A stretch of DNA of 64,000 bases from Halomonas binhaiensis (GTDB lineage Bacteria; Pseudomonadota; Gammaproteobacteria; Pseudomonadales; Halomonadaceae): NCBI RefSeq assembly GCF_008329985.2, contig NZ_CP038437.2, forward strand, positions 2,852,001 to 2,916,000. The letters are read 5' to 3'. Below the pieces are notes generated by a model. It was given only the letters and a program-made list of their open reading frames with translations, was not told where the DNA came from and did no database searches. Shown here piece after piece: positions 1 to 12,725 of this stretch. Within the stretch, counting starts at the first letter, position 1. Each line of letters opens with the position of its first letter. The position numbers were made by a program, and so were the translations under genes.

Positions 1-2
1 AG

Positions 3-86
3 CCTGAATTCAACTACAACATTCCCGAACCGATCGATTGCAAAGGCGTTTCTCCCAACAGTGGACAAACCACCAGAGATCAGTGA
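3..86 (+). CDS. C-terminal end of an unidentified upstream gene (partial)
   Basis: An open frame enters from the left edge and stops at a TGA at 84-86. The 27 visible residues (beginning PEFNYNIPEPIDCKG) use codons typical of the GC-rich genes in this window, which is why I treat it as the tail of a real gene. The family cannot be recognised from so little sequence. It precedes a broken LuxR-type gene on the same strand. Confidence 0.25.
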   Translation, partial: PEFNYNIPEPIDCKGVSPNSGQTTRDQ

Positions 87-198
87 GTTACCGGCTTACC
101 TGGCAAGGCGGACCATGCAAGCCACTTCCCATCAGTTACGGCTCTAGGGCGCGGGCTAGCAACCCTCTCCTTCGCTCATACAGACATGAACCTACCCC

Positions 199-1065
199 AT
201 GGCATCGTATGAGCGATTGAGACTTACCGGAGTCATTGACATGGTCGAGAGCCTGGTCCCGAATCGAGAAAGATTGGCCATTGTGATCGATACGCTTGGA
301 GAGCCCTTCTTTCACGATGCCATGATCGAGTATCTCTCAGAACTATTCGGCGGGCTCAAGGGCCTTTCGCTGCTGTACCACAAGAGTGCTCAGCCAGAAA
401 TTCTGGTGAATCAGGTGCTCGACGAGAACGTTCAGGAGATTTATCTCAGTGGTCTCTACATCCTTGACCCACTCAACAACGTCACTCGCGATAACTTATC
501 TGCCTGAATATACAGTTTTAACGAAAGCTTCGAGATTGATATTGACAAGATTCGCTATCAAGAAGAGGTTTTCAAGAGAGCACGTATAAGCGACGAGCTC
601 GCTTGGCTTATCAAAATGCCTGATGCAAGCATGCTGGCTTTCTGCCTCGACAAACCGGATGCGCAGTTCACAGCCGATGAGATCCAGTTGGCGAAGTCTG
701 AATTGCCGGTGGTTAAGTCGCTATCTGAAAAGCATTTTGAACAGGAGTTTCTCAGCAAGCTCAAGGAGCGGCCGGGAACCTTTACACAAATTGAGCGTAT
801 TCAGCACCTGCAGAGCAATCGGGTGATCGAATCTTCCGTTGGCGTCCTGACCGTGCGTCGAGAGGTTGGGTATCATGAAGCTGCGTTCGAGAGCGAGGCT
901 ATTCTGACCAGCAGCATTGTCTCACTGGGCGACGAGCACTACCTTGAACAAAGAATTCGCCCACGAAACAGTGTCAGCGTCAAACACTACCAGGGAATTA
1001 TCAACCGAGCACTGGCTGAATACCCTTTGTCGAAACGTGAACAGCCCCATGCTAACTACATCTAA
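199..1065 (+). pseudogene. LuxR-type transcriptional regulator, broken by an internal stop and missing its DNA-binding domain
   Basis: Two open stretches, 199-507 and 508-1065, lie in the same frame and are separated only by a TGA at 505-507. The codons after it continue a plausible protein without a frameshift (IYSFNESFEIDIDKIRYQEE). The C-terminus reaches PLSKREQ, which resembles the first residues of a LuxR/GerE helix-turn-helix (usually LTxREQE), and then changes to PHANYI and stops. The whole HTH is therefore absent. The break coincides with the start of an AT-rich island at about 1040, so insertion of that island, or a linked deletion, probably removed the domain. No clear Shine-Dalgarno precedes the ATG at 199. 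The LuxR assignment rests on the short C-terminal motif and is moderate. Confidence 0.5.
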
Positions 1066-1096
1066 TAAAAACAATATACTAACAAAGGGTACGTTC

Positions 1097-2413
1097 TCAG
1101 GCGATATAGCTTGAGTCCGCATTCTCACGTTTGTCATTGACAGTTTTTCTCTTTGATTCACATCGTTCCAAAACACCTGGATTGAAAATTTTTATGTCAA
1201 TATGCACTCCAAGATCATCCTTCAAAGACTTTCTAAGTCTTTCTGAAATATCGTATATCTGTGATCTTTCAAAATTGTATTTCCCACGTGACAATTCCAC
1301 ATTAAGTATGACATGATCTGAAAACCCGTGCTTCTCGATTTCCAATAAGTAATATGGCGATAGTTCTGGAAAATCACACAATACCGTCTCCACTTGACTT
1401 GGAAACATATTAACCCCTTTGACAATCAACATGTCATCAGATCGAGAAGCTATACGTTCCACCCATACACCACTAAGACCTTTTCTCTTTACAATACGAG
1501 TAATATCACCAGTTCTATATCTTATAAGTGGAAGCGCTTCTTTCAAAAAGCTCGTTATAACTAACTCCCCATAACATCCGTCAGGTACCAATTCACCTTC
1601 TTCGTTCACAATTTCCACATAAAAATGATCGCTCCACAATATAATACTGTCACTATCATTCGGGTCTTCAACCCCAACTCCTGGTCCCATTATTTCTGAC
1701 AAACCATATATATTCACAGCTTTTATGCCAAGTGCCTTTTCTATTTGCTGCTTCATATTGACTGGCCATGGCTCAGCCCCCATAAAACCTAGCCTCAAGG
1801 GACTACGGGAAATGTCAAAATTTAATTTTTCTGATTGTTCAGAAAGATGCATTGCAAATGAAGGAGTACTCAAAAGCACAGTGGCTTTAAGATCACGCAA
1901 TAGATCAATCTGTTTTCTTGTATTCCCAGATGAAGCAGGTACCAATGTTGCGCCACTAGCTTCAACTCCAAGCTGAAGACCTAGGCCACCGGTAAACATC
2001 CCGTATCCAAACGAATTATGTACAATGTCATCTTTTGATAACCCGTGCATCATTAGGCAACGAAGAACAAGTGTTTCCCAGTTCCTAATGTCATTCTTGG
2101 TATACCCAACAATCTTTGGTCTGTTCTTTGTACCACTTGAAGAATGAAGTCTTACAACTTCAGAAAGCGGTACGGCGAATAACCCATAAGGGTAATTTTC
2201 TTGAAAATCTTTTTTTGTAGTAAATGGAAGAGAATTTATATCACGCAAAGAATTAACATCATGATTAGAGACGCCGAAGTCCAAAAGCTTTGATTGATAG
2301 TCTGAACCACCAACACGAATCCTCTTCAGCGCATTCGCAATGCAGTTCACATAATACTCCTCTAGATCTTGGCATAAATTTTCTTTCCCATCGATAACTG
2401 AATTATCAAACAT
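1097..2413 (-). CDS. PaaK-like AMP-dependent acyl-CoA ligase/adenylating enzyme
   Basis: This 438-residue protein has the architecture of the phenylacetate-CoA ligase (PaaK) branch of the AMP-binding superfamily. It shows a P-loop region SSGTKNRPKIVGYT near residue 92, the FGYGMFTGGLG segment, NIYGLSEIMGPGVG as the aromatic/glutamate motif, a YRTGD motif, the hinge segment SDDMLIVKGVNMFPSQVE, and a C-terminal lysine region ESKRKTVNDKR. The P-loop is unusual, since most relatives read SSGTTGKP. The family activates a carboxylic acid as an acyl-AMP and passes it to CoA; the acid used here is unknown. I chose the ATG at 2413 (GGGAG eight bases upstream) over a GTG nine bases earlier. It is the last gene of the operon and overlaps the transporter gene by eight bases. 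Strongly AT-rich. Confidence 0.85.
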   Translation of the reverse strand: MFDNSVIDGKENLCQDLEEYYVNCIANALKRIRVGGSDYQSKLLDFGVSNHDVNSLRDINSLPFTTKKDFQENYPYGLFAVPLSEVVRLHSSSGTKNRPKIVGYTKNDIRNWETLVLRCLMMHGLSKDDIVHNSFGYGMFTGGLGLQLGVEASGATLVPASSGNTRKQIDLLRDLKATVLLSTPSFAMHLSEQSEKLNFDISRSPLRLGFMGAEPWPVNMKQQIEKALGIKAVNIYGLSEIMGPGVGVEDPNDSDSIILWSDHFYVEIVNEEGELVPDGCYGELVITSFLKEALPLIRYRTGDITRIVKRKGLSGVWVERIASRSDDMLIVKGVNMFPSQVETVLCDFPELSPYYLLEIEKHGFSDHVILNVELSRGKYNFERSQIYDISERLRKSLKDDLGVHIDIKIFNPGVLERCESKRKTVNDKRENADSSYIA

Positions 2414-3260
2414 TACCGACACTCCCCAAGGTCAGAACAATGATACTTGAAATAGAAAACACAATACCTAACACTTTAATACTGCTAACTCTTTCCTTAA
2501 GATGTACCACACCAAGAACCACAGGAACTAGAGGGTACATTGAAACAATCAGAACACTAATTATAAGCAACTGGCCTTCTTTGGCTATCGTGTAGAGAAC
2601 AAGACCAAGAGCACTTATTGAACCTGCAAACATAGCAATTCTTGCCTGTCTCCTAGTAGCCTCAAAAATACTAGGATTTGCATAAGGGAAAATTACTATA
2701 GAGGCAACAAACATACTAACTGCCACAGCGGCCAAGGCTCCTGAAGGAGAGACTTCCCCTAATGTTACTAGTTGACATGCAAACCCAAATCCAGAGAAAA
2801 CAGCTTGGCCTACTCCACTTCTTTTTTCCTCATTTTCATGGCCATGTTTAGCATGCTCAGTACTCCAAGTCATAAGCATAATTGCCGGGATTGAAAAAAC
2901 AAGCCCTAGACTACTTAACAGACCAATACGCTCGCCGAGAAACAGGATGGATATAATTAGAGAGAAAACCACCATCGAAACGCCACTAAGCGGCACAACT
3001 ACACTAACAGCACCAGTACTCATGCCTCGATATAGAAAAATCGCGCCCAATGCTGAAGCAATACCTGATAGAGCCCCCCAATAAAGAGAGTTTAAGGTAA
3101 AATCCGAATAGGCAAGCGCTGCTATTAATGCTATTAAAAAACCACCTATGTGCGTAAAGAAGCTTATCTTCTTCACATCATAATGCCTAGACAACATACC
3201 ATTTATAAAATGGGTAATTCCTAGACATATCATCGCTATAAGTGAAATAAAAATAGACAA
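2406..3260 (-). CDS. DMT-superfamily (EamA-type) transporter
   Basis: The 284-residue protein is almost entirely hydrophobic, with about ten predicted membrane helices in two similar halves, as in EamA-domain metabolite exporters. Helices are visible from residue 1 (SLIAMICLGITHFINGML) to the C-terminus (VLGIVFSISSIIVLTLGS). A short charged loop (TEHAKHGHENEEKRSG) separates the halves near residue 145. The start is a TTG preceded by GGAG. It sits between the EctC-like gene (five bases away) and the PaaK-like gene (overlapping), so I infer that it exports the pathway product, although substrate import is also possible. No substrate can be read from the sequence. Confidence 0.85.
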   Translation of the reverse strand: MSIFISLIAMICLGITHFINGMLSRHYDVKKISFFTHIGGFLIALIAALAYSDFTLNSLYWGALSGIASALGAIFLYRGMSTGAVSVVVPLSGVSMVVFSLIISILFLGERIGLLSSLGLVFSIPAIMLMTWSTEHAKHGHENEEKRSGVGQAVFSGFGFACQLVTLGEVSPSGALAAVAVSMFVASIVIFPYANPSIFEATRRQARIAMFAGSISALGLVLYTIAKEGQLLIISVLIVSMYPLVPVVLGVVHLKERVSSIKVLGIVFSISSIIVLTLGSVGNV

Positions 3261-3265
3261 CTCGC

Positions 3266-3661
3266 CTACTCCACCAAGTCATTTATTGCAGGGTACCCCC
3301 CTGTATCATCATGTACCTCATCGCCTCTTGTCGGTGGTGTGAAAACACAGATACCCCGAAGATCTGTAATAGCATGCAACTCATGCTCATCCCCGATACT
3401 CAAGTAATAGCACACCCCCGGAGATAGCTCGTGCCTAACCCCACTAAAACAGTCATAAACATACCCAGTGCCAGAAACCATATAAACAAACTCTTCTTGA
3501 TGCTTATAACAAATATTTAAAGTTTCACCAGAGCGTATGACCGTATCATGTACCGAGTATTGAGCCCCGTCATCACTAACAAGAAGCCTATAACTATCAA
3601 AATTATGATTATCTACATGCTGAAAGGAATTCCTTAGCTCACTCTTGCTCCACACCTTCAT
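3266..3661 (-). CDS. EctC-like cupin (ectoine synthase family)
   Basis: This 131-residue single-domain cupin aligns by eye with ectoine synthase over its whole length and in the same numbering. As I recall the EctC literature, iron is bound by Tyr52, Glu57 and His93, and all three are present here (CYKHQEE and DEHELH). Other pocket residues also match: Arg25, Thr40, Tyr85, Cys105, Phe107, Glu115 and His117 (ICVFTPP, DEVH). Three usually conserved positions differ: Trp21 is Phe, Asn38 is His and His55 is Gln. EctC closes N-gamma-acetyl-diaminobutyrate to ectoine by loss of water; I infer a related cyclisation on a different or modified substrate. The gene overlaps the EctA-like gene by 23 bases and has AAGGAG upstream of its ATG. 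A general cupin of other function is a weaker alternative. Confidence 0.85.
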   Translation of the reverse strand: MKVWSKSELRNSFQHVDNHNFDSYRLLVSDDGAQYSVHDTVIRSGETLNICYKHQEEFVYMVSGTGYVYDCFSGVRHELSPGVCYYLSIGDEHELHAITDLRGICVFTPPTRGDEVHDDTGGYPAINDLVE

Positions 3662-4154
3662 TCACCAACTCCTTTTTCCTCTCAAGTCGTATCAAAGTTT
3701 CTTTATGATGACTGCTAATAAAATCGCTCTCTAAAAATAAATCTTTTTGAGACACATTAGTCTCATACTGTTTGGCAAGTGACGTCAGCGTGTTGTATGC
3801 TGCGTCATTACAAACATCAATCGTAGCTTCAAATGCACTAACATCTTCGCCTACACTATCGATCAATTTTTTGACTAACGAAAAGCCTAATCCAGAACTT
3901 CTTACACTAGGATCAACAGCTATCTGCCACAAAAACAGCGTTCTATTATCATCAGGCCTGATATATGCAAGAATATAACCAAGCAATCTATCCCCAGACT
4001 TGGCCACCAGAGATGTCTTCCTGAAATCTCGTGCCCAAACAAGATAAAAATACTCAGGATATAAATCCAAATTGTCATTGCAAGCTGCCAGTCGAAACAA
4101 GCTTTTTGCATCAACTACCGACGGATGCTCAAATCTAATTTCACTTTGGATCAT
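3639..4154 (-). CDS. EctA-like GNAT acetyltransferase (diaminobutyrate acetyltransferase family)
   Basis: The 171-residue protein follows the EctA pattern: an N-terminal LDLYPEYFYL where EctA has LDLNSSYxYL, then TSLVAKSGDRLLGYILAY, the central FLWQIAVDP, and the acetyl-CoA-binding loop RSSGLG near residues 85-90. EctA transfers acetyl from acetyl-CoA to the gamma-amino group of L-2,4-diaminobutyrate. The C-terminal third is more divergent, so the acceptor or acyl donor may differ. I start at the ATG at 4154 rather than the in-frame TTG at 4196, because the match to EctA begins there and AGG lies upstream. It is the first gene of the operon. No ectB (diaminobutyrate aminotransferase) is in this window. 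Confidence 0.83.
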   Translation of the reverse strand: MIQSEIRFEHPSVVDAKSLFRLAACNDNLDLYPEYFYLVWARDFRKTSLVAKSGDRLLGYILAYIRPDDNRTLFLWQIAVDPSVRSSGLGFSLVKKLIDSVGEDVSAFEATIDVCNDAAYNTLTSLAKQYETNVSQKDLFLESDFISSHHKETLIRLERKKELVNEGVEQE

Positions 4155-4248
4155 TACAATACCTGTACGAGATTCATTTGATTCAGGATACTGCAAAGAT
4201 TAGGATATATGAAATCAATTCATGTCATCTTTAATATGAGGTGATTCG
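4155..4248. promoter_or_regulatory. Divergent promoter region between the EctA-like gene and the LysR gene
   Basis: This 94-base AT-rich gap separates two divergently transcribed genes, the classical arrangement in which a LysR protein binds between itself and its target operon. A half-palindrome-like stretch (ATGAAATCAATTCAT, 4209-4223) could be part of the operator. No individual promoter box was assigned with confidence. Confidence 0.45.
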
Positions 4249-5172
4249 ATGAGCAACAAACATGAAATAACACTGACTCAGCTTCGTGCCTTCAAGAGTG
4301 TAGCGGACTCACAATCTTACACTAAAGCTGCTTCATGTACTGGTGTAAGCCAATCCGGTATCAGCCATTCCTTAACAAGACTTGAGGATTTCTTTGAAAC
4401 TCCACTTTTTTCCTACAACGGTAGAAACATTTCTGGCCTTACTCCCGTGGGGAGTAAACTATACACTTTCACTACAAACATCATAACAGAACTAAATAAT
4501 ATTAACTCCCTCGCAGACTTTTCAAGAAGCACACCCAAGGAACGACTTAACATCGCTTCGATCAATAGCGTTGCCACATCATATCTAAACAACATACAGA
4601 ACAACAAAATTGAAAGCTGCATTAGGAACGTACTCACGGGGTTTGAGCATGAAGTGGAAAGATGGGTCATGGATGGAATAGCTGACATCGGATTTACAAC
4701 GGATATCTCAAACACTATCTCACAAAAGTGGAAAGGAAAATTTCATTGGAAGGTTGCATTTCAAGACGAGCTGGTTGTAATTGTTCCCAAGGCACACCCT
4801 CTAGCCAACAACCTTGAAGTTTCTCTTGATCAAGCTAGTGACTTCCCACTAATTATTTCTTCAGGTGGGTGCGAGGATTTAGTATATAATTTTTTTGAAG
4901 AATCAGGAATTTCACGCAGTGAACTTGTGATACGACTATGGGTTAATAACTTTAGCACTTTGATCCAAATGGCTAGAAATGACGTTGGCGTTTCTATTGT
5001 TCCTAGACTTGCCCTTCGCAAGGAAGACACTAGAGGCATTGAGACACTAAGCTTAAATCCTATTTTATACAGATCCATCTTAGTTTTCGGACTGACGGAT
5101 AATATGAGTCGCCCTGAGATAAAGTACTTCTTCGAAAACTTCAAGAACGAAAAAAACAATTTTAATTATTAA
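4249..5172 (+). CDS. LysR-family transcriptional regulator
   Basis: The 307-residue protein has a winged HTH at residues 10-70 (LTQLRAFKSVADSQSYTKAA, then GVSQSGISHSLTRLEDFF) followed by a LysR effector-binding domain (DELVVIVPKAHPLA, then an SIVPRLAL segment). GAGGTG lies seven bases before the ATG. Divergent orientation and shared AT-rich composition indicate that it controls the EctA-like/EctC-like operon, probably in response to a precursor or product, which is inference. It is a typical-length, apparently intact LysR protein. Confidence 0.9.
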   Translation: MSNKHEITLTQLRAFKSVADSQSYTKAASCTGVSQSGISHSLTRLEDFFETPLFSYNGRNISGLTPVGSKLYTFTTNIITELNNINSLADFSRSTPKERLNIASINSVATSYLNNIQNNKIESCIRNVLTGFEHEVERWVMDGIADIGFTTDISNTISQKWKGKFHWKVAFQDELVVIVPKAHPLANNLEVSLDQASDFPLIISSGGCEDLVYNFFEESGISRSELVIRLWVNNFSTLIQMARNDVGVSIVPRLALRKEDTRGIETLSLNPILYRSILVFGLTDNMSRPEIKYFFENFKNEKNNFNY

Positions 5173-5421
5173 TAGCGGAAGACAAAAACAATCTATTTAA
5201 AACACCTAAATTGATGATACTCTTGAAACTCTCATCTGCGGAAGAGTACGCAAAAAAACCTCTCCAAGTGGAAATAATCCATATATTAACATCGAGAAAT
5301 CTGTAACAAATAGAGCAGGAGATTAAAGTGCGTTGCGAATTGAGTAGCTGTCAAGAACTTATCGCTACACTCGTCAATAGTCTCAACCCTAGCAAGTGGG
5401 GTATACCCTAAGCACAACAAT
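5173..5421. other. Gap at the right edge of the island; no gene seen
   Basis: About 250 bases hold no convincing coding sequence. The first half is AT-rich like the island, and the composition rises towards the truncated isochorismatase gene. I looked for the missing LuxR HTH coding sequence here and did not find it. Confidence 0.5.
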
Positions 5422-5440
5422 AAAAAACCCCTCTGAGGGG
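5422..5440 (-). terminator. Rho-independent terminator of the isochorismatase-like gene
   Basis: On the minus strand CCCCT-CAG-AGGGG is followed by TTTTTT (plus strand AAAAAA at 5422-5427, then the stem). It starts nine bases beyond the stop codon of the truncated hydrolase gene. The stem is short but GC-rich with a clean U-run. Confidence 0.7.
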
Positions 5441-5448
5441 ACTGAGGT

Positions 5449-5751
5449 TCAAGCAACCAGTTGTCTGGCCAGTTCCATCTCGACCGACTCGCCATTGCTA
5501 TTGAGTGCAGCCAGGCCCGACTCGGGCATGTCCCGGAGGTGCATTGCGCCACGGCGATCTTTCTCGCCAGCAGCCGCAGACATGTGAGCGGACTCATGCC
5601 GAACATGGATGACGAGATCCTTTACCGATCGAGCATGCTCAATGACTTTGGCTGCATTCGTTGCTGCTGTTTCAATACTCTCCAGCGGCAGCTTGCCACC
5701 GGGGAAATATTCATTCTGGATATCTACAACAATGATGGCGCGGTTACTCAT
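5449..5751 (-). pseudogene. Truncated isochorismatase-family cysteine hydrolase
   Basis: The first 50 residues (MSNRAIIVVDIQNEYFPGG, then VIHVRHES) are a clear isochorismatase/nicotinamidase-type N-terminus, including the Asp of VVDIQ. After HESAH the protein departs from the family; a 45-residue unrelated tail ending MELARQLVA completes a protein of only 100 residues, against about 180 usually. The segment with the catalytic cysteine (normally near residue 110-120) is missing. I therefore read it as a remnant formed by deletion or rearrangement next to the AT-rich island. The tail was not recognised. Confidence 0.6.
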
Positions 5752-5881
5752 GTGACCAACCCTCTTTCAGTGGTATTTACCAGGTGTCCTGGCGCCATCC
5801 CCCCAGTGTCAACCTGTTCATGCTCTGGCAAGGACTGCGCTGGGTAGACCAGCTCCCTTCAACACGCGGGTCGCGAGCAAC

Positions 5882-5905
5882 GGGCCGCCATGAAGGTGGC
5901 GGCCC
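5882..5905 (-). terminator. Hairpin terminator after the MBL-fold gene
   Basis: A nine-base stem GGGCCGCCA / TGGCGGCCC with a six-base loop lies seven bases past the stop codon of the minus-strand gene starting at 6790. The following U-run is weak (CGTTGC on the minus strand), so it may terminate inefficiently or mainly protect the 3' end. Confidence 0.5.
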
Positions 5906-5911
5906 ATGGGA

Positions 5912-6790
5912 TCAAAAAGAGATGACCTCGCCGTCGGCGGGAATCAAGACGTGATCCTGGATGCCTTCTGCCTGCACATAATCGGCCAATTCGTCCCGGC
6001 TCAGCGTCATATGGTTCACCGCGTCCATATGCACCGCGATAATGGTGGCATTTGGAACCGCCTGATGGGTACGCAGCGTATCTTCCTTGCCCATGATGAT
6101 GGGGTCGCCTTCGAAGCCGGTCACCTCGGCGGCGCCGGTATTCAGCACGATCACCTCAGGGTTGTAGCGCTCCAGTGCCTGCTCGACCTCATCGCGCCAG
6201 ACGCTATCACCAACCACATAGGTGGTCTTCTGTCCCGGCGCCTCGAAGACCACGCCCATGACATCGCCTAATGATTGTGCCAGCTCGGGGACGGCATAGA
6301 GCGTATCAGAGCCGTGCTGGCCACCTGTCTTGTGGAGCTGCACCCCGCCGAACTCGGCATCACCATCGAGAATGCGCACATCACTGAAGCCCTGGGAGCG
6401 AATCAGCTCAGCATCGGCGGCATTCTGGGTGAACAGGGGAATATCCTTCGGTAGCAACTCCTGAGCGGCAGCGTCCCAGTGGTCGAGATGAGTGTGGGTA
6501 ACGATCACGGCGTCCGTGTCGGCGATCACATCCTCTGCCGGCATTGGCAGCCCAACCAACGGATTGCGCAATTCGCTGCGATAGGTGTTTTCGAAGCCCG
6601 GATAGGCGCCCTGCTCAGCCAGCATTGGGTCGATCAGGAAAGTGGTATCGCCATAGGTGATCTTCAGCGTGGCATTGCGGATCTGCTGCACCTGCGGCGT
6701 TGTCTCCTGAGAAGTCGAGTCCGCGGATGCACTGCCGGCGATGAGGGCCGTGGTCAGGGTCAAGGAACTTGCGAATGTCTTGATCAGCAT
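5912..6790 (-). CDS. Secreted metallo-beta-lactamase-fold hydrolase
   Basis: The 292-residue protein begins with a signal peptide (MLIKTFASSLTLTTALIAGSA, cleaved near SASA-DS), so it probably acts in the periplasm. The metal-binding motif VTHTHLDHWD lies near residue 98; later ligand candidates are HKTGGQHG, the Asp of VVGDSVW and HMDAVNHMTL. This is the UlaG-like branch of the MBL fold, whose substrates vary and cannot be told here. GGAG precedes the ATG. It is divergent from a GlxA-type regulator 125 bases away, which may control it. Confidence 0.85.
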   Translation of the reverse strand: MLIKTFASSLTLTTALIAGSASADSTSQETTPQVQQIRNATLKITYGDTTFLIDPMLAEQGAYPGFENTYRSELRNPLVGLPMPAEDVIADTDAVIVTHTHLDHWDAAAQELLPKDIPLFTQNAADAELIRSQGFSDVRILDGDAEFGGVQLHKTGGQHGSDTLYAVPELAQSLGDVMGVVFEAPGQKTTYVVGDSVWRDEVEQALERYNPEVIVLNTGAAEVTGFEGDPIIMGKEDTLRTHQAVPNATIIAVHMDAVNHMTLSRDELADYVQAEGIQDHVLIPADGEVISF

Positions 6791-6915
6791 ATGGATGCTC
6801 CTCCATTACATTGCTGGGGTAATGGCAAGCAGTCTAGAGTGACCCGACTGAGCAAAAAATTGGCCTGCAAGGCAATATTCGAAACTTTCGGGCCACAATG
6901 CCATAATCGACAAGA

Positions 6916-7893
6916 ATGAATGTCAGGAGTCGAACCTTGTCACTGCCCCGCGTCGGGCTGATCCTTCACCCGAATATCAGTCCTTTTCATTTCTCGGTGC
7001 CCTACACGGTGTTCGGTATGGCCTTGCCCGACCGCCTACTGTTCGATCTATTCATCGTGGCACCAGAGGGAACGCCGCTGCAGGCCGAGCGAGTAATGAC
7101 ACTGCAGCCCGACGGCGGCCTGGAACTGCTGGACAGGGTAGATATCGCAGTGGTACCTGGCTGGCATGACCTGAATGAAGCGCCAGCGCCAGAGTTGGCC
7201 GAGGCGCTCACCCGTTGTCATGAGCGAGGCGCCCATGTGGTAGGACTCTGTTACGGCACCTATGCCCTCGCTTATGCCGGGCTGCTGGACGGTAGACGGG
7301 CATCGACTCACTGGATGGCCGAGCAGGACTTCAGTGATCGCTTTCCCAGAGTCAAGCTGGACACCAATGCGCTCTATGTGGAGGAAGATCGTCTGGTGAC
7401 ATCTGCCGGTACCGCAGCCGGCCTGGATTGTTGCTTGTTCCTGGTACGCGAATATTACGGCGCGCAGATTGCCAACAAGGTGGCCCGTGTCATGGTAGTC
7501 CCACCACATCGGGAGGGAGGACAGGCGCAGTTCATAGAGCAGCCGGTTGCCACCTCTACCCAGGACGCCCATATCAACCACCTGCTCGACTATCTGCGGG
7601 AACACCTGGCGGAATCACACACCATTGACGAACTCGCTGACCATACGGCCATGAGCCGGCGTACCTTCACGCGCCATTTCCACAAGGCCACCGGCATGAC
7701 GGTAGTGGAATGGCTAGTGAGCGAGCGGTTACGGCGTGGCCGCGAGCTATTGGAAAACACATCATTGTCGGTAGAAGCCATTGCGGAAAGGGCCGGTTTT
7801 CGCACAGCAACATCTTTTCGGCAACATTTCAGACAGCGCCATCAGGTCAGTCCCCGCGACTGGCGCAAGACATTCGGCGAGCCAAAAGACTGA
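6916..7893 (+). CDS. GlxA-family AraC-type transcriptional regulator
   Basis: The 325-residue protein joins an N-terminal DJ-1/PfpI-like (glutamine amidotransferase-like) domain (about residues 8-180, with HVVGLCYGTYALAYAG at the nucleophile elbow) to a C-terminal AraC HTH (about 215-315; TIDELADHTAMSRRTFTRHF and SVEAIAERAGFRTATSFRQHF). Family members sense small metabolites and activate nearby genes. The divergent MBL-fold gene is the obvious candidate target, but that is inference. Confidence 0.9.
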   Translation: MNVRSRTLSLPRVGLILHPNISPFHFSVPYTVFGMALPDRLLFDLFIVAPEGTPLQAERVMTLQPDGGLELLDRVDIAVVPGWHDLNEAPAPELAEALTRCHERGAHVVGLCYGTYALAYAGLLDGRRASTHWMAEQDFSDRFPRVKLDTNALYVEEDRLVTSAGTAAGLDCCLFLVREYYGAQIANKVARVMVVPPHREGGQAQFIEQPVATSTQDAHINHLLDYLREHLAESHTIDELADHTAMSRRTFTRHFHKATGMTVVEWLVSERLRRGRELLENTSLSVEAIAERAGFRTATSFRQHFRQRHQVSPRDWRKTFGEPKD

Positions 7894-8286
7894 CCATTAT
7901 CGGGCCCACGCCTTGATGAGTTGATCATCTTCCCGTGCCTGTTGATTGAGATTTCGCCCGATATTGGTGATCAGCCGCGACAGCTTTAATCCGATCAGCA
8001 CAAGAAGGAGCCTTGCGCCCCGAAGGTTTGCGGGGCTCAACACGATGTATCAGCGTCGCCGATCGATAGGTAGATTGACCAACGGCTCGTCGGGCACACC
8101 GATGCCGTGATCTTCGATATCGGCATATATGAAGCTAATACTCCTGTTTACCTGTAGCAGTCTCGTCTTGTCGGATACCGTATACAACTATGAAGCTCTA
8201 CCTCGTCACTACAAATCATGAGTTAGCATCAGCAGCCTCGTACACAGCTCCAATCAAGGCTCGCCCCACTCCCTCAGAAAACCTTG
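7894..8286. other. Gap of about 390 bases with no intact gene
   Basis: No complete coding sequence is visible. On the minus strand 7897-8001 reads as a short open stretch (KLSRLITNIGRNLNQQARED, ending IKAWAR and stop) that vaguely resembles the C-terminus of plasmid mobilisation protein MobC, and may be a gene remnant. A weak hairpin (GCCCCG / CGGGGC) lies near 8012-8036. The rest looks like decayed intergenic DNA. Confidence 0.4.
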
Positions 8287-10047
8287 TTATTCCGTACGCC
8301 TCCACATACTGGACAAGGAAACTGCCAGTACCGACATCAGCACAAGTGCCAGCGCTGGCAACAGTACTGCCCACGGTGCACGCTCCAGATAAGGCATGCT
8401 CTCCGAGAGCAAAAGCCCCCACTCTGGCGCAGGAGGGCGAGGCCCCAACCCGAGAAAACCCAGTGACGCTAATGCCAGAGCCGTTCCCGGCAGCCTCAGC
8501 ATTGCGTGCCGAAATACCGGCCCGATGACGGAAGGTATGAGATACCGGATCAATAGGCGAAAGCTGCCCACCCCCAGAATTGGCGTAATCCTAATATGTG
8601 CTTGCCCCATCACTTCGGTTACCAGCGCCGCCGTGTGGGCAGCCAACGGCGCCCAGGTCACAGCAGTCACCGCAATGACCGCCCCGCTTGCACTAGGCCC
8701 CATGACCCCGGCGACGATCAATCCGGCAATCACAGGAGGTGTAGCATTGGTAATCTCTATGGGTCCTGCCGCCAACCGCGGCATGAGCCCAATCAGGACA
8801 CCGATCACGAAGGTAATGAAAACCGTGACCAGCGCCATACCCATAGTGGAAAGTGCACCATGGCTAACACGTGCCAGAATATCGCGACCGGTACCGTCGG
8901 CACCTAATGGTAGAGCCAAACTCGGAGGCTGCAACCGCAGATAGGCGGAAGCCATAGGGTCACGCCCCAGGCCTGCAAGGATGATCACAGCGAGTATCAC
9001 CACCGCCCCTACCGGGACAACCCAGCGTCCTCGCCCTGCATGACGAGCATGGGCAGCTACAGGAATGGCACCGGTACGGAGTGCAGGCCCCAGCAGTGCA
9101 GAACGACCGAGATTGATGGCGGCTCCCAGCACAACAGCAATGAGGAGCAAGATCAGAATGCCTGCCTGAAGCGCCGGCAAGTCCTGAGCCGAGGCAGCAC
9201 CTAATGTCGCGCGCCCGAGCCCGGGGATAGAAAACACCTGCTCTACAGCGATGGCACCTCCGGTTAACCCTATGACGACCAGCCCAACCTGAGGCATCAA
9301 GCTTGGCAAGGTACGCTGCAAGACCGCCAATACGATGCGACGCCGTTCAAAGCCTGCCACATGCCAGGTCGCAAGCCAGCGTTCGGAGAATGCTACCGTC
9401 AATGCATCACTGAACAGCCGCCCTATCAGTCCTCCTCCCGGCAGTCCCAGCGCCAACGCTGGCAATACAAGATGGCGAGGTTCTCCCCAGCCATAAGGCG
9501 GAAACCACTTCAACCAGGCTGCAAAGACCACCAATAGAAGCGATGCCAGCAGAAATTCAGGCAAAGCCGTAAGCGTAGCGCCAACGGCACCCGATGTTGA
9601 TGTTGGATTACCAGCAAGTCCACGCCGCATGGTCGGCAGGCAAATCAACACGGCAGTCACTACTGCCACCAGCAGTGCAGCTAACATCAACGTCAGCGAG
9701 ACCTGGGTCGCCTGTAGCATCCCTGGTAGCACTGGGGCGCCGGAAATCCATGAGTTACCTGCATCCCCATGGAGGAGCCCCGTTACCCAAGTCGACAGTT
9801 TCTCCACTGGCCCGAGATCAAGCCCCAACTGCATGCGAATAGCATCCAAGGCTTCCTGAGTCGGATTCTGCTCTCCGGCCCGGGCACGCAAAATGCTGAG
9901 CGCAGGGTCCCGACCAGACAACCATGGCAACAGCCCCACCAGTAACACAACGCCTGACAACGTGATGAGTCGTGATAGGAACGGAATGAGCCAGCGCCCA
10001 TGCATACGGCGACGATGCGCCCCAGCCGAAAGGTTAAAGTCTGTCAT
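8287..10047 (-). CDS. Fused two-domain ABC permease of the nickel/peptide/opine type
   Basis: The 586-residue protein combines what are normally two separate permeases. The first half is DppB/NikB-like, ending with the typical EQVFSIPGLGRATLGA. The second half is DppC/NikC-like, containing GPRPPAPEWGLLLSES before the last helix. About eleven to twelve membrane helices are visible, with a linker around residues 320-345. The fusion fixes the two halves as one inner-membrane channel. I start at the ATG at 10047; a GTG at 10074 overlapping the previous stop is possible. It is the last gene of the operon led by two ATPases. Confidence 0.87.
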   Translation of the reverse strand: MTDFNLSAGAHRRRMHGRWLIPFLSRLITLSGVVLLVGLLPWLSGRDPALSILRARAGEQNPTQEALDAIRMQLGLDLGPVEKLSTWVTGLLHGDAGNSWISGAPVLPGMLQATQVSLTLMLAALLVAVVTAVLICLPTMRRGLAGNPTSTSGAVGATLTALPEFLLASLLLVVFAAWLKWFPPYGWGEPRHLVLPALALGLPGGGLIGRLFSDALTVAFSERWLATWHVAGFERRRIVLAVLQRTLPSLMPQVGLVVIGLTGGAIAVEQVFSIPGLGRATLGAASAQDLPALQAGILILLLIAVVLGAAINLGRSALLGPALRTGAIPVAAHARHAGRGRWVVPVGAVVILAVIILAGLGRDPMASAYLRLQPPSLALPLGADGTGRDILARVSHGALSTMGMALVTVFITFVIGVLIGLMPRLAAGPIEITNATPPVIAGLIVAGVMGPSASGAVIAVTAVTWAPLAAHTAALVTEVMGQAHIRITPILGVGSFRLLIRYLIPSVIGPVFRHAMLRLPGTALALASLGFLGLGPRPPAPEWGLLLSESMPYLERAPWAVLLPALALVLMSVLAVSLSSMWRRTE

Positions 10048-10057
10048 GCTGCTGCTT

Positions 10058-11575
10058 TCACTCGTCACTCTCACCCGCGAGTCGTGTATGTTCGGTGACC
10101 AGTCTACGCTCCCGCGGATCTCGCTCTGCCGCTACCACATGAGGTGACTCCCCCTGAATGACACGCTCATGAAGCATTGGTACTGCAGCATCGGTTGCCA
10201 GAATCGTGGCCTCGGCATCAATAATGGCCTGGCGGCGCTCTGGCCCCTGGGGCAGGTCAGCCGCTCTCTTCAGCGCCGCGTCAATGTCGGGGTCACAAAG
10301 CTGGGCGATGTTGAAGGAGCCTTCACAGGCGAAATCGCTGTACAGGTAGGCCACTGGATCACCAGAGTCGAGCATGGTCGCTCGCGATAATATGAAAGCG
10401 TCGAACTCACCTGACAGCATGTCCGCTTCAATATGGGCATACTGGCGGACTTCCTGCTGAACAGTGAACCCTGCTGTCGTCAACTGCTGCTCAAGCAGTA
10501 CCGCGACTTCCGGCAGTTCTGCCCGATCAGTGAAGGTGGCAAGCGTGATCTTGGCACCTTCTGGGTCCGCTGCGGGTGTTCTGCCCTCAATGGGCGAACG
10601 CAATTCATCGGCCCACGGTAGTGCAGGCCCCAGGAGTCCCTTGGCAACATCAGCCCGCCCCTCGTATACCGTCCTGACGATGGCGTCACGATCAATTGCC
10701 TGGCGGGCTGCCGCCCGCAGGCCAGGATTCTGAAAAGGGCCTGTTTCAGTGTTGAGGTAGAGCGTGTTAGTCCGCGGCATCGGCACTTCATGAACCAGCT
10801 CGGGGTCAATCAGCGCCACTTGAGAAACCGGCACGGCCTCGACGACATCTGCGGTACCAGTGCGCAAAGCCGCGCCTCGCGCCGTACCATCGGGCACGTA
10901 GTCTGCATCAATGCCTGCCAGCTCAGCCTTTTCCCCCCAGTACCCCTCGTAGCGATCAAGCCTGGCACTTTGGGTACCGTTGATCTCCTTGAGCACGAAT
11001 GGGCCGGTACCGGCTTCGATGGGATTGACACGTCCATCCTCGCCATAGGCACTTGCCGCTAGAATCGCCAGCTGCGGACTGGAGAGACGATTGGGTACCA
11101 AGGGATCAGCCTCTGCGGTGCGCACGATGACAGCGTGATCATCTTCGGCCTCGATCGTCATCGAGACGCCATCCAGGATACGCGGCTTGGGCGAAGCCTT
11201 CGTGGCCGCAGATAATGCCTTGACCACCTGCTCTGCCGTCAGGTGGCTACCATCATGAAAGGTAACACCCTCACGAATCTCGAAGCGCCAGGTTCTAGGG
11301 TCCAGTTGCTCCCACTCTGTCGCCAGGAACGGCTGCGGATCACCATCATCATTGAGGCGTACCAACGTCTCCGCCGTACTCCAGCGCGAGAGCTTGAAGG
11401 CATCGTCAGTCAGCGGGTTCAAACCAGAACGGGGTGGCTGCAGCATGGCAACTCGAATGCGCTGCTCTCCACTGGCAGCAGTATCAGCCCCCTTGGGGTC
11501 TTCTTGCTGACAGCCCGCGAGCATGGCCAATGAAAGTGCAGCGATAGAGAAAGATAATGGGGCACGTGACGTCAA
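10058..11575 (-). CDS. ABC-transporter substrate-binding lipoprotein (nickel/peptide/opine family, SBP family 5)
   Basis: The protein of about 505 residues starts at a TTG (AGGAG eight bases upstream) and has a lipoprotein signal ending LAMLAGC, so it should be anchored in the periplasm. The mature part is a family-5 binding protein: TAETLVRL, TWRFEIREGVTFHDG, GTGPFVL, AARQAIDRDAIV. NikA, CntA and DppA belong to this family. With a Zur box in front of the operon, zinc or a zinc-metallophore complex is the most likely cargo, though peptide or nickel cannot be excluded from sequence alone. Confidence 0.87.
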   Translation of the reverse strand: MTSRAPLSFSIAALSLAMLAGCQQEDPKGADTAASGEQRIRVAMLQPPRSGLNPLTDDAFKLSRWSTAETLVRLNDDGDPQPFLATEWEQLDPRTWRFEIREGVTFHDGSHLTAEQVVKALSAATKASPKPRILDGVSMTIEAEDDHAVIVRTAEADPLVPNRLSSPQLAILAASAYGEDGRVNPIEAGTGPFVLKEINGTQSARLDRYEGYWGEKAELAGIDADYVPDGTARGAALRTGTADVVEAVPVSQVALIDPELVHEVPMPRTNTLYLNTETGPFQNPGLRAAARQAIDRDAIVRTVYEGRADVAKGLLGPALPWADELRSPIEGRTPAADPEGAKITLATFTDRAELPEVAVLLEQQLTTAGFTVQQEVRQYAHIEADMLSGEFDAFILSRATMLDSGDPVAYLYSDFACEGSFNIAQLCDPDIDAALKRAADLPQGPERRQAIIDAEATILATDAAVPMLHERVIQGESPHVVAAERDPRERRLVTEHTRLAGESDE

Positions 11576-11892
11576 GATACGGACTCCTGGAAGCAGGTCG
11601 AGGCCGAAGTAGTGGAAAAGAGTGGAAAGCGAAGCAGGACGAACAGCGCAATGGCACTGATCGCCGGGAAGGCAGCCGACACCAGCCAAGGAGCAGTGGC
11701 CGCATATGAAGGAAAAAGTGCATCATCCAGCAGGTCAACGACGAGAACGTTACCCACGAGGACTACCACGCCACCGACTGCCGCACCCGCCAAAACAAGA
11801 TTGTCACGCAGATGCGTCGCCAGAAATGGCAACACCATATAAAAGCCGACATTGAAGATAAGCTGGCTTATCCGCAGAACCGGATGCGTCAT
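11572..11892 (-). pseudogene. Internally deleted MFS transporter remnant
   Basis: The 106-residue reading frame joins an MFS N-terminus (ISQLIFNVGFYMVLPFLATHLRD) directly to what looks like the last helices of such a transporter (APWLVSAAFPAISAIALFVLL). About 280 central residues would be missing, so a working transporter is unlikely. It keeps an ATGA overlap with the ATPase gene upstream and runs into the binding-protein gene. Its place in the operon mirrors the MFS metallophore exporters of opine-metallophore clusters. A genuine small membrane protein is a less likely reading. Confidence 0.6.
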
Positions 11893-12725
11893 GGGCTCAC
11901 CCTATCTCGTGTTGAACCGCGAATCGACAGGGTCATGGCCGCTTGAAGCAGAGCCTCGGTTCGCGCATGCACGGGGGCACGGAACAGCTCTAGCGTAGGA
12001 CGGTCTTCAATAATGGCGCCGTTATCCAGAATGATGGTTCGCTGGCAAAGTCGGGAGATCACCGAAAGGTCGTGAGAGATGATGAGCAGTCCGATACCGG
12101 CAGACTGATTCAACGACTCCAGCACTCGGGTCACGCGGGTCTGGGCCGGGAGGTCGAGACCACTCAAGGGCTCATCGGCCAGTAACAGTTTCGGGCGTAC
12201 AGCGATCGCGCGCGCGATCGCAACACGCTGAGCTTGCCCTCCAGAGAGTTGTCCAGGGCGGCGTGTCAAAAGCCGGCTCTCCAGCCCAACTTGCTCTAGA
12301 GACTCCTCCACGCGCCGATCGTGATTGCAGTCGACACGCAGCCTCGCGAGTGGCTCTCTGACAAGATCACGGACACTCATCCGCGGATCCAATGAAGATG
12401 CAGGGTCCTGGGGAACATACTGAACTGTTCGCCGATACCAGCGCAGCGAACTCACCGATGCGGGGGCAATGGGCTTGCCGAGACACGAGATGCCCCCTGC
12501 GTCGGCACTCTCCAATGCGAGAATCAGATTCAGCAGTGTTGTCTTGCCCGCTCCGGATACGCCAGCCAGTCCGATGCATTCACCAGGAAACAGCTGGAAA
12601 CTCACGTTCTTCAATATCTGCCGTCTGGTGCCCCTTCTCCAGAAACCGGCGATTCCTGCAAACTTGTTGAGCCCTGTGACGCTAAGCAGAGAACCGTCTT
12701 CGTTGAACCGGTCTATGCTCTGCAT
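11889..12725 (-). CDS. ABC-transporter ATP-binding protein (DppF/CntF-like)
   Basis: The 278-residue ATPase has Walker A GVSGAGKT, signature LSGGQAQR, Walker B LLLADEPLSGLD and the switch histidine in IISHDLS. It forms a cytoplasmic nucleotide-binding subunit of the importer. The ATG at 12725 is preferred over a GTG two codons earlier because of spacing to GGTGAGG. It overlaps the first ATPase gene by thirteen bases and the MFS remnant by four. Confidence 0.9.
   Translation of the reverse strand: MQSIDRFNEDGSLLSVTGLNKFAGIAGFWRRGTRRQILKNVSFQLFPGECIGLAGVSGAGKTTLLNLILALESADAGGISCLGKPIAPASVSSLRWYRRTVQYVPQDPASSLDPRMSVRDLVREPLARLRVDCNHDRRVEESLEQVGLESRLLTRRPGQLSGGQAQRVAIARAIAVRPKLLLADEPLSGLDLPAQTRVTRVLESLNQSAGIGLLIISHDLSVISRLCQRTIILDNGAIIEDRPTLELFRAPVHARTEALLQAAMTLSIRGSTRDRVSP

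Follow-up and report, generated by a model that had tools for sequence, protein, structure and literature searches.

Within a 64,000-nucleotide stretch of the Halomonas binhaiensis chromosome (the window, whose numbering is used throughout), positions 1097-5172 carry a divergent lysR gene and a compact minus-strand operon that, by open reading frame (ORF) analysis, codes in order for an EctA-family acetyltransferase (EctA'), an EctC-family cupin (EctC'), an EamA-family transporter, and a PaaK-like ligase. Our tentative interpretation of these sequences is that they form a regulated, horizontally spread accessory module that could make and export an ectoine-like cyclic amidine, with the ligase as an add-on of one lineage. 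No ectB is present among the cluster ORFs, either in the window or at the related loci found in five other genomes, which are Halomonas piscis (G225) and the carriers G242, G208, G113, and G091 (the window's own genome is G000). The host, a member of the Halomonadaceae with a one-contig chromosome of 4,895,269 bases, also carries, some 0.6 Mb from the cluster, a full canonical ectABC set encoding EctA (221.6 bits; cut-off, 120.6), EctB (TIGR02407, 648.7 bits; cut-off, 552.2), and EctC (173 bits; cut-off, 128). By their ORF coordinates, ectA' and ectC' overlap by 23 bases, ectC' and the transporter gene lie 5 bases apart, and the transporter and ligase genes overlap by 17 bases; homology places the EctA' start at ATG 4154, giving 171 residues, and that of the ligase at ATG 2413, giving an 8-base overlap with the transporter gene, as also in H. 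piscis. GC content is 0.395 at 1097-5172 versus 0.583 at 5901-64000. A preliminary description of this DNA had listed the same five genes, tightly packed on AT-rich DNA and lacking EctB, and had proposed that the host EctB could supply diaminobutyrate; all of this holds, and because five other genomes have the genes in the same order (partly broken there), the arrangement is more than chance.

EctC' is a member of its family but stands apart within it. It matches PF06339 with 121.5 bits (gathering score, 27) and EctC sequences of known structure (best E, 7.6e-24), and EctA' likewise matches EctA sequences whose structures are solved (best E, 9.9e-12), which bears out the family memberships first proposed. 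The NF009806 cut-off of 128 is not reached by EctC' of the window (118.1 bits), G242 (102.8), or G208 (116.4). In a tree of 52 sequences, five EctC' proteins form one clade (support 100/99) whose branch is 1.58 changes per column long, opposite 40 sequences with ectB nearby and 6 orphans without it; EctC' does not group with these 6 sampled orphans, although long branches make its deeper placement unsure. The tree was built from 60 distinct sequences minus 8 shorter than 115 residues, and includes L007, a short piece without ectB that was assigned to no group. All five EctC' proteins have the iron ligands E57, Y85, and H93 (Glu57, Tyr84, and His92 in P. lautus EctC), and EctC' retains the carboxylate- and amine-binding residues R25, T40, Y52, and E57, together with most of the substrate contacts named in the excerpted text of PMC6344544. 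Position 21, however, is Phe in all five versus Trp in 40/40 canonical rows, and position 103 is Gly in all five versus Leu, Met, Val, or Cys in 46/46 others; Gly103 lies two residues ahead of Cys105, and residue 103 probably faces the barrel. Excerpts of PMC6344544 describe Trp21 as piston-like, invariant among 437 EctCs encoded in gene clusters, and conserved but at times shifted in 145 orphans; one orphan in our alignment (L049) has Gly at this position.

EctA' is remodeled in a similar manner. Seven EctA' sequences have fixed or near-fixed differences at seven positions from 119 other EctA sequences, a set that contains many near-copies, in which locus rows were retained only if more than 30% identical to EctA of the host and from which the fragment P0041 (see below) was excluded. 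Position 32 is Tyr or Cys in 7/7 versus Asn in 118/118 canonical rows that have a residue there, and position 119 is Ala in 7/7 versus Ser in 118/118; Ser33 is replaced by Pro (Ser in 114/118 others), and Phe123 by Leu (Phe in 119/119 others). Asp30 and Trp76, which correspond to Asp33 and Trp79 of P. lautus EctA, residues with a role in that enzyme, are present in all seven and also in 118/118 canonical rows with a residue at these positions. The window EctA' scores 111.9 bits against TIGR02406, below the equivalog cut-off of 120.6. EctA is listed among the GNATs with a serine in the place of PA3944 S148, of which an Ala variant is almost inactive, with the caution, in the excerpted text, that conservation by itself does not settle the role of the serine (PMC8072286). 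Judging from the N-x-x-S spacing, S119 of canonical EctA is probably the counterpart of PA3944 S148, and the chemistry of EctA' may be different from that of the canonical enzyme.

The distribution of EctA' is narrow. It is present in 1 of 90 genus genomes (G000 itself; the next best match, 59.3 bits, is within the canonical EctA range) and in 6 of 275 family genomes, the carriers named above, of which the G091 copy is separated from canonical EctA by gene context and not by score. In samples of the larger groups, G000 and G208 alone exceed 115 bits among 390 order genomes, and G000 alone exceeds 124 bits among 398 phylum genomes. A profile run against 5.8 billion proteins, in a search that reaches only proteins sharing exact words with an alignment row and that remoter relatives may escape, returned 80 matches at E <= 1e-25, of which eight are EctA': P0003 to P0009, with 210 to 299 bits, and P0041, an 88-residue fragment that also has the clade motif. 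The next match after P0009 has 147 bits, where the rows annotated as or resembling canonical EctA begin, and all EctA' members that bear names are from Halomonas. Two further contig scans added nothing to the clade; one had no relative, and the other gave a canonical Paenibacillus EctA (L037), accompanied by ectB and ectC, plus a match of 22 residues (L038).

Searching the carriers with all five proteins (tblastn) and reading their ORFs revealed lysR/ectA'-ectC'-transporter as a recurring unit in G242, G208, and G113; the G091 copy is decayed by a deletion that removed ectC' and shortened ectA'. There is no ligase match at E <= 1e-4 in the four 15-kb neighborhoods L040-L043 (G242, G208, G113, and G091), where the operon terminates at the transporter. 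The ligase is common only to the window and H. piscis (79.7% identity), and overlaps the transporter gene in both; the transporters are 78% identical between these two and 37 to 43% in the four ligase-free loci, where LysR identity is 33 to 36%. On this distribution, the ligase is a gene gained by, or lost from, a four-gene unit, and its absence from 4/6 loci indicates that EctA' is not generally reliant on a ligase of the same operon. The preliminary description had the ligase activating the carboxylic acid whose acyl group EctA would transfer, and this step is not supported as a general scheme, as four of the six loci end at the transporter; of the EctA-EctC-PaaK-DMT neighborhood without EctB that it outlined, five further carriers were found, but with PaaK only in H. 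piscis. Canonical ectB and ectC are present in 6/6 carrier genomes, so a diaminobutyrate supply is possible in every host. The five frames of the window, and the four each of G242 and G208, are all intact. In H. piscis, one transposase gene splits ectA' and another splits lysR, and in G113 there is a frameshift near the end of ectA'.

The low GC content and patchy occurrence suggest horizontal spread of the module. A blastn search with window positions 1-6000 matched seven plasmid records, all within 5513-5756 and outside the cluster, and the transporter has one plasmid match (Rhodococcus, 29% identity) with no ect genes seen within 4 kb. An empty insertion site could not be defined, since G078, the sole syntenic genome found, matches only 5881-7880 of window positions 1-12000.

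The ligase is closest to PaaK, and matches PaaK structures, but scores 439.5 bits against TIGR02155, under the cut-off of 646.3. The window and H. piscis ligases differ from 7/7 reference PaaKs at 28 positions, including Lys for Thr at position 99, which is taken to be in the nucleotide-binding loop. Service in the usual phenylacetate route was considered and rejected, because searches of G000 and H. piscis for a second PaaK (E <= 1e-50) and for PaaA (TIGR02156; E <= 0.001) found nothing in either genome. Among the six carriers, only G242 has both PaaA and PaaK, and G208, G113, and G091 have neither; this pattern indicates that phenylacetyl-CoA derived from PaaK is no general need of the module.

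The transporter matches PF00892 with 56.6 bits over two stretches (cut-off, 28.2), and is presumed to be an exporter from its family and from the precedent of CntI, an EamA exporter encoded last in the small-metabolite operon for pseudopaline, as described in excerpts of PMC5719457. The ectA'/lysR intergenic regions of all six loci have a TCAT-N6/7-ATGA dyad (N6 in G113) starting 21 to 24 bases ahead of lysR, which would be the site of LysR binding. In mononucleotide shuffles, the chance of a dyad match anywhere in the region is 0.005 to 0.009 per region, a figure to be read with caution, as the H. piscis copy is identical to that of the window and does not count as independent of it, the right half runs into the likely lysR ribosome-binding region, and the plain pattern occurs five times in the 64-kb window. 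The genes common to the window and H. piscis are under purifying selection, with ratios of nonsynonymous to synonymous substitution rates (dN/dS; calculated with our own Nei-Gojobori script) of 0.08 to 0.28: 0.195 for the ligase, 0.284 for the transporter, 0.237 for ectC', 0.235 for ectA' (first 122 aligned codons), and 0.082 for lysR (first 186 codons). A role in anti-phage defense was also considered, but none of the five proteins matches a PADLOC model at E <= 0.001.

A plausible scheme for the module is that the LysR-type regulator, responding to a ligand, would control the divergent ectA'-ectC'-transporter genes through the conserved dyad. Host EctB would supply diaminobutyrate, EctA' would acylate it or a close diamino acid, EctC' would close the acylated compound into a cyclic amidine other than, or in addition to, ectoine, and the EamA transporter would export it. 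The ligase added in the lineage that includes the window and H. piscis plausibly supplies a particular acyl-CoA. We infer the substrates, the order of the steps, the ring closure, the export, and the ligase role. The replacement of near-invariant residues in both enzymes favors a product beyond plain ectoine, without saying which, and the active-site changes seen in the alignments argue for a compound other than N-gamma-acetyl-diaminobutyrate. A more specific form of this proposal, which we hold yet more tentatively, is a remodeled EctA/EctC pathway in which a serine-less EctA' and a Phe21 EctC' would yield an exported non-ectoine amidine, with a non-acetyl acyl group fed by the ligase in one lineage perhaps giving a 2-substituted ectoine.

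Several observations weigh against the proposed scheme. The G242 and G208 EctA' proteins score 135.2 and 136.9 bits, above the TIGR02406 cut-off, a result consistent with ordinary acetylation of diaminobutyrate. Without Ser119, acyl transfer could be altered or lost, and, in the text excerpted from PMC6344544, Ala at Trp21 lowers P. lautus EctC activity to 9.7%. Phe21 is not unique to the clade, being found also in the orphan EctC L048 (Rhizobium plasmid). Finally, copies are broken in three of the six genomes (H. piscis, G113, and G091), so the function of the module is dispensable.

The main rival explanation, although unlikely, is detoxification, in which LysR would sense a toxic diamino acid, or an analogue, from outside the cell, EctA' and EctC' would modify it, and the transporter would expel it. 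A divergent LysR gene beside genes for a modifying enzyme and for a DMT transporter fits this, the hosts already own EctA and EctC, and patchy occurrence with decay is consistent with a conditionally useful gene set. Nonetheless, two successive biosynthetic-type enzymes exceed the need for a single modification, nothing in the analysis points to a toxic substrate, and the PaaK-type ligase of two genomes is left unexplained. An improbable alternative is that the module is a second ectoine route, using host diaminobutyrate and exporting the ectoine, for example as a released osmolyte. Both enzymes match the EctA and EctC families, two EctA' copies clear the EctA equivalog cut-off, and the host would provide diaminobutyrate, but this sits poorly with the replacements at Trp21 (Phe), Gly103, Asn32, and Ser119, and with the window EctA' and the three tested EctC' proteins being under their NCBIfam cut-offs. 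We regard as similarly improbable that the substrate of the two enzymes has no relation to diaminobutyrate, or that they catalyze another reaction such as hydrolysis, their ectoine likeness reflecting ancestry only. The losses of the EctA serine and the EctC tryptophan and the long EctC' branch are compatible with this, as is the description, in excerpts of PMC5924519, of H. elongata EctC forming 5-amino-3,4-dihydro-2H-pyrrole-2-carboxylate (ADPC) from glutamine and hydrolyzing ectoine analogues; however, the iron ligands and R25, T40, Y52, and E57 are retained, and the EctA-EctC pairing is intact except in the decayed G091 copy. That the cluster is simply decaying and has no present function is very unlikely, for although half of the carriers have broken copies, the frames of the window, G242, and G208 are intact, dN/dS is low relative to H. 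piscis, and the dyad is preserved in 6/6 loci.

We prefer, then, the production and export of an ectoine-like amidine, and its relationship to known systems is partial. The module resembles canonical ectABC in its EctA- and EctC-family enzymes, the EctC iron ligands, and most substrate contacts, but differs in lacking ectB, in having a LysR and not a MarR-type EctR regulator and its own transporter, and in clade-specific replacements in both enzymes, which point to residues worth testing. As with orphan (solitary) EctC-type proteins, an EctC-family gene lies outside ectABC, but here it is accompanied by genes for an EctA-family enzyme, a transporter, and a regulator, and the hosts hold ectoine genes of their own. 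Tools that equate any EctC with an ectoine cluster would probably mislabel such a locus. The ligase is PaaK-like in its PF00501 and PF14535 domains, but its score, its 28 divergent positions, and a genome without PaaA set it apart. The cntLMI pseudopaline operon is a likeness of layout only, with overlapping biosynthetic genes and an EamA/DMT exporter gene downstream in the excerpted account (PMC5719457); its enzymes are different, it is metal-regulated by Zur, and no outer-membrane receptor gene is seen beside the window operon. Excerpts of PMC5924519 and PMC6344544 call the function of EctC-like proteins outside ectABC unresolved, and the idea of another substrate and an exported product for such an EctC is directly testable here with three or four genes. 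The preliminary description knew of no pathway with this combination, and we likewise found none in the open-licence literature on ectoine enzymes.

Other EctC contexts were also noted. Within L049 6001-11655 (Aliiroseovarius crassostreae plasmid), the orphan ectC precedes ketosynthase-type, acyl-CoA dehydrogenase, AMP-binding, and acyl carrier protein genes, with neither ectA nor ectB nearby. At L048 1673-7568 (Rhizobium sp. WYJ-E13 plasmid), the orphan ectC overlaps an amidase gene and lies behind ehuBCDA ectoine-type transporter genes. H. piscis has four EctC-family matches (L077, L078, L082, and L039), namely the canonical protein, EctC', and two more, one of which reads through a stop.

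Table 1. Features of the ectA'-ectC' locus in the window
Feature	Positions	Strand	Basis and remarks
PaaK-like AMP-forming acyl-CoA ligase, last gene, lineage-specific	1097..2413	-	PF00501 and PF14535; ORF reaches GTG 2422
EamA/DMT-family transporter, presumed exporter	2406..3260	-	PF00892, two stretches
EctC', EctC-family cupin, separate clade	3266..3661	-	PF06339; E57, Y85, and H93 kept; Phe21, Gly103
EctA', EctA-family GNAT, separate clade	3639..4154	-	PF00583, TIGR02406; Tyr32, Ala119; ORF reaches TTG 4196
ectA'/lysR intergenic region	4155..4248	.	Aligned across six loci
TCAT-N7-ATGA dyad, candidate LysR operator	4225..4239	.	6/6 loci
LysR-type regulator, divergent	4249..5172	+	PF00126, PF03466

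Flanking the locus in the window, plus-strand ORFs at 199-507 and 616-1065 are in the same frame, split by stops, and have no Pfam match; they may be one broken gene. At the right edge of the AT-rich island, a minus-strand isochorismatase-type ORF of 100 residues (5449-5751) covers profile positions 2-63 of 175, and is probably a truncated hydrolase. Upstream of the window in G000 (L025 14462-14989, plus strand) is a gene for a Yop-YscD cytoplasmic domain protein (PF16697, 42 bits), a component of type III secretion systems; the large ORFs next to it have no clear Pfam match. In G242, genes for a LuxR-type regulator and an autoinducer synthase (L040 12687-14071) lie about 4 kb past lysR.

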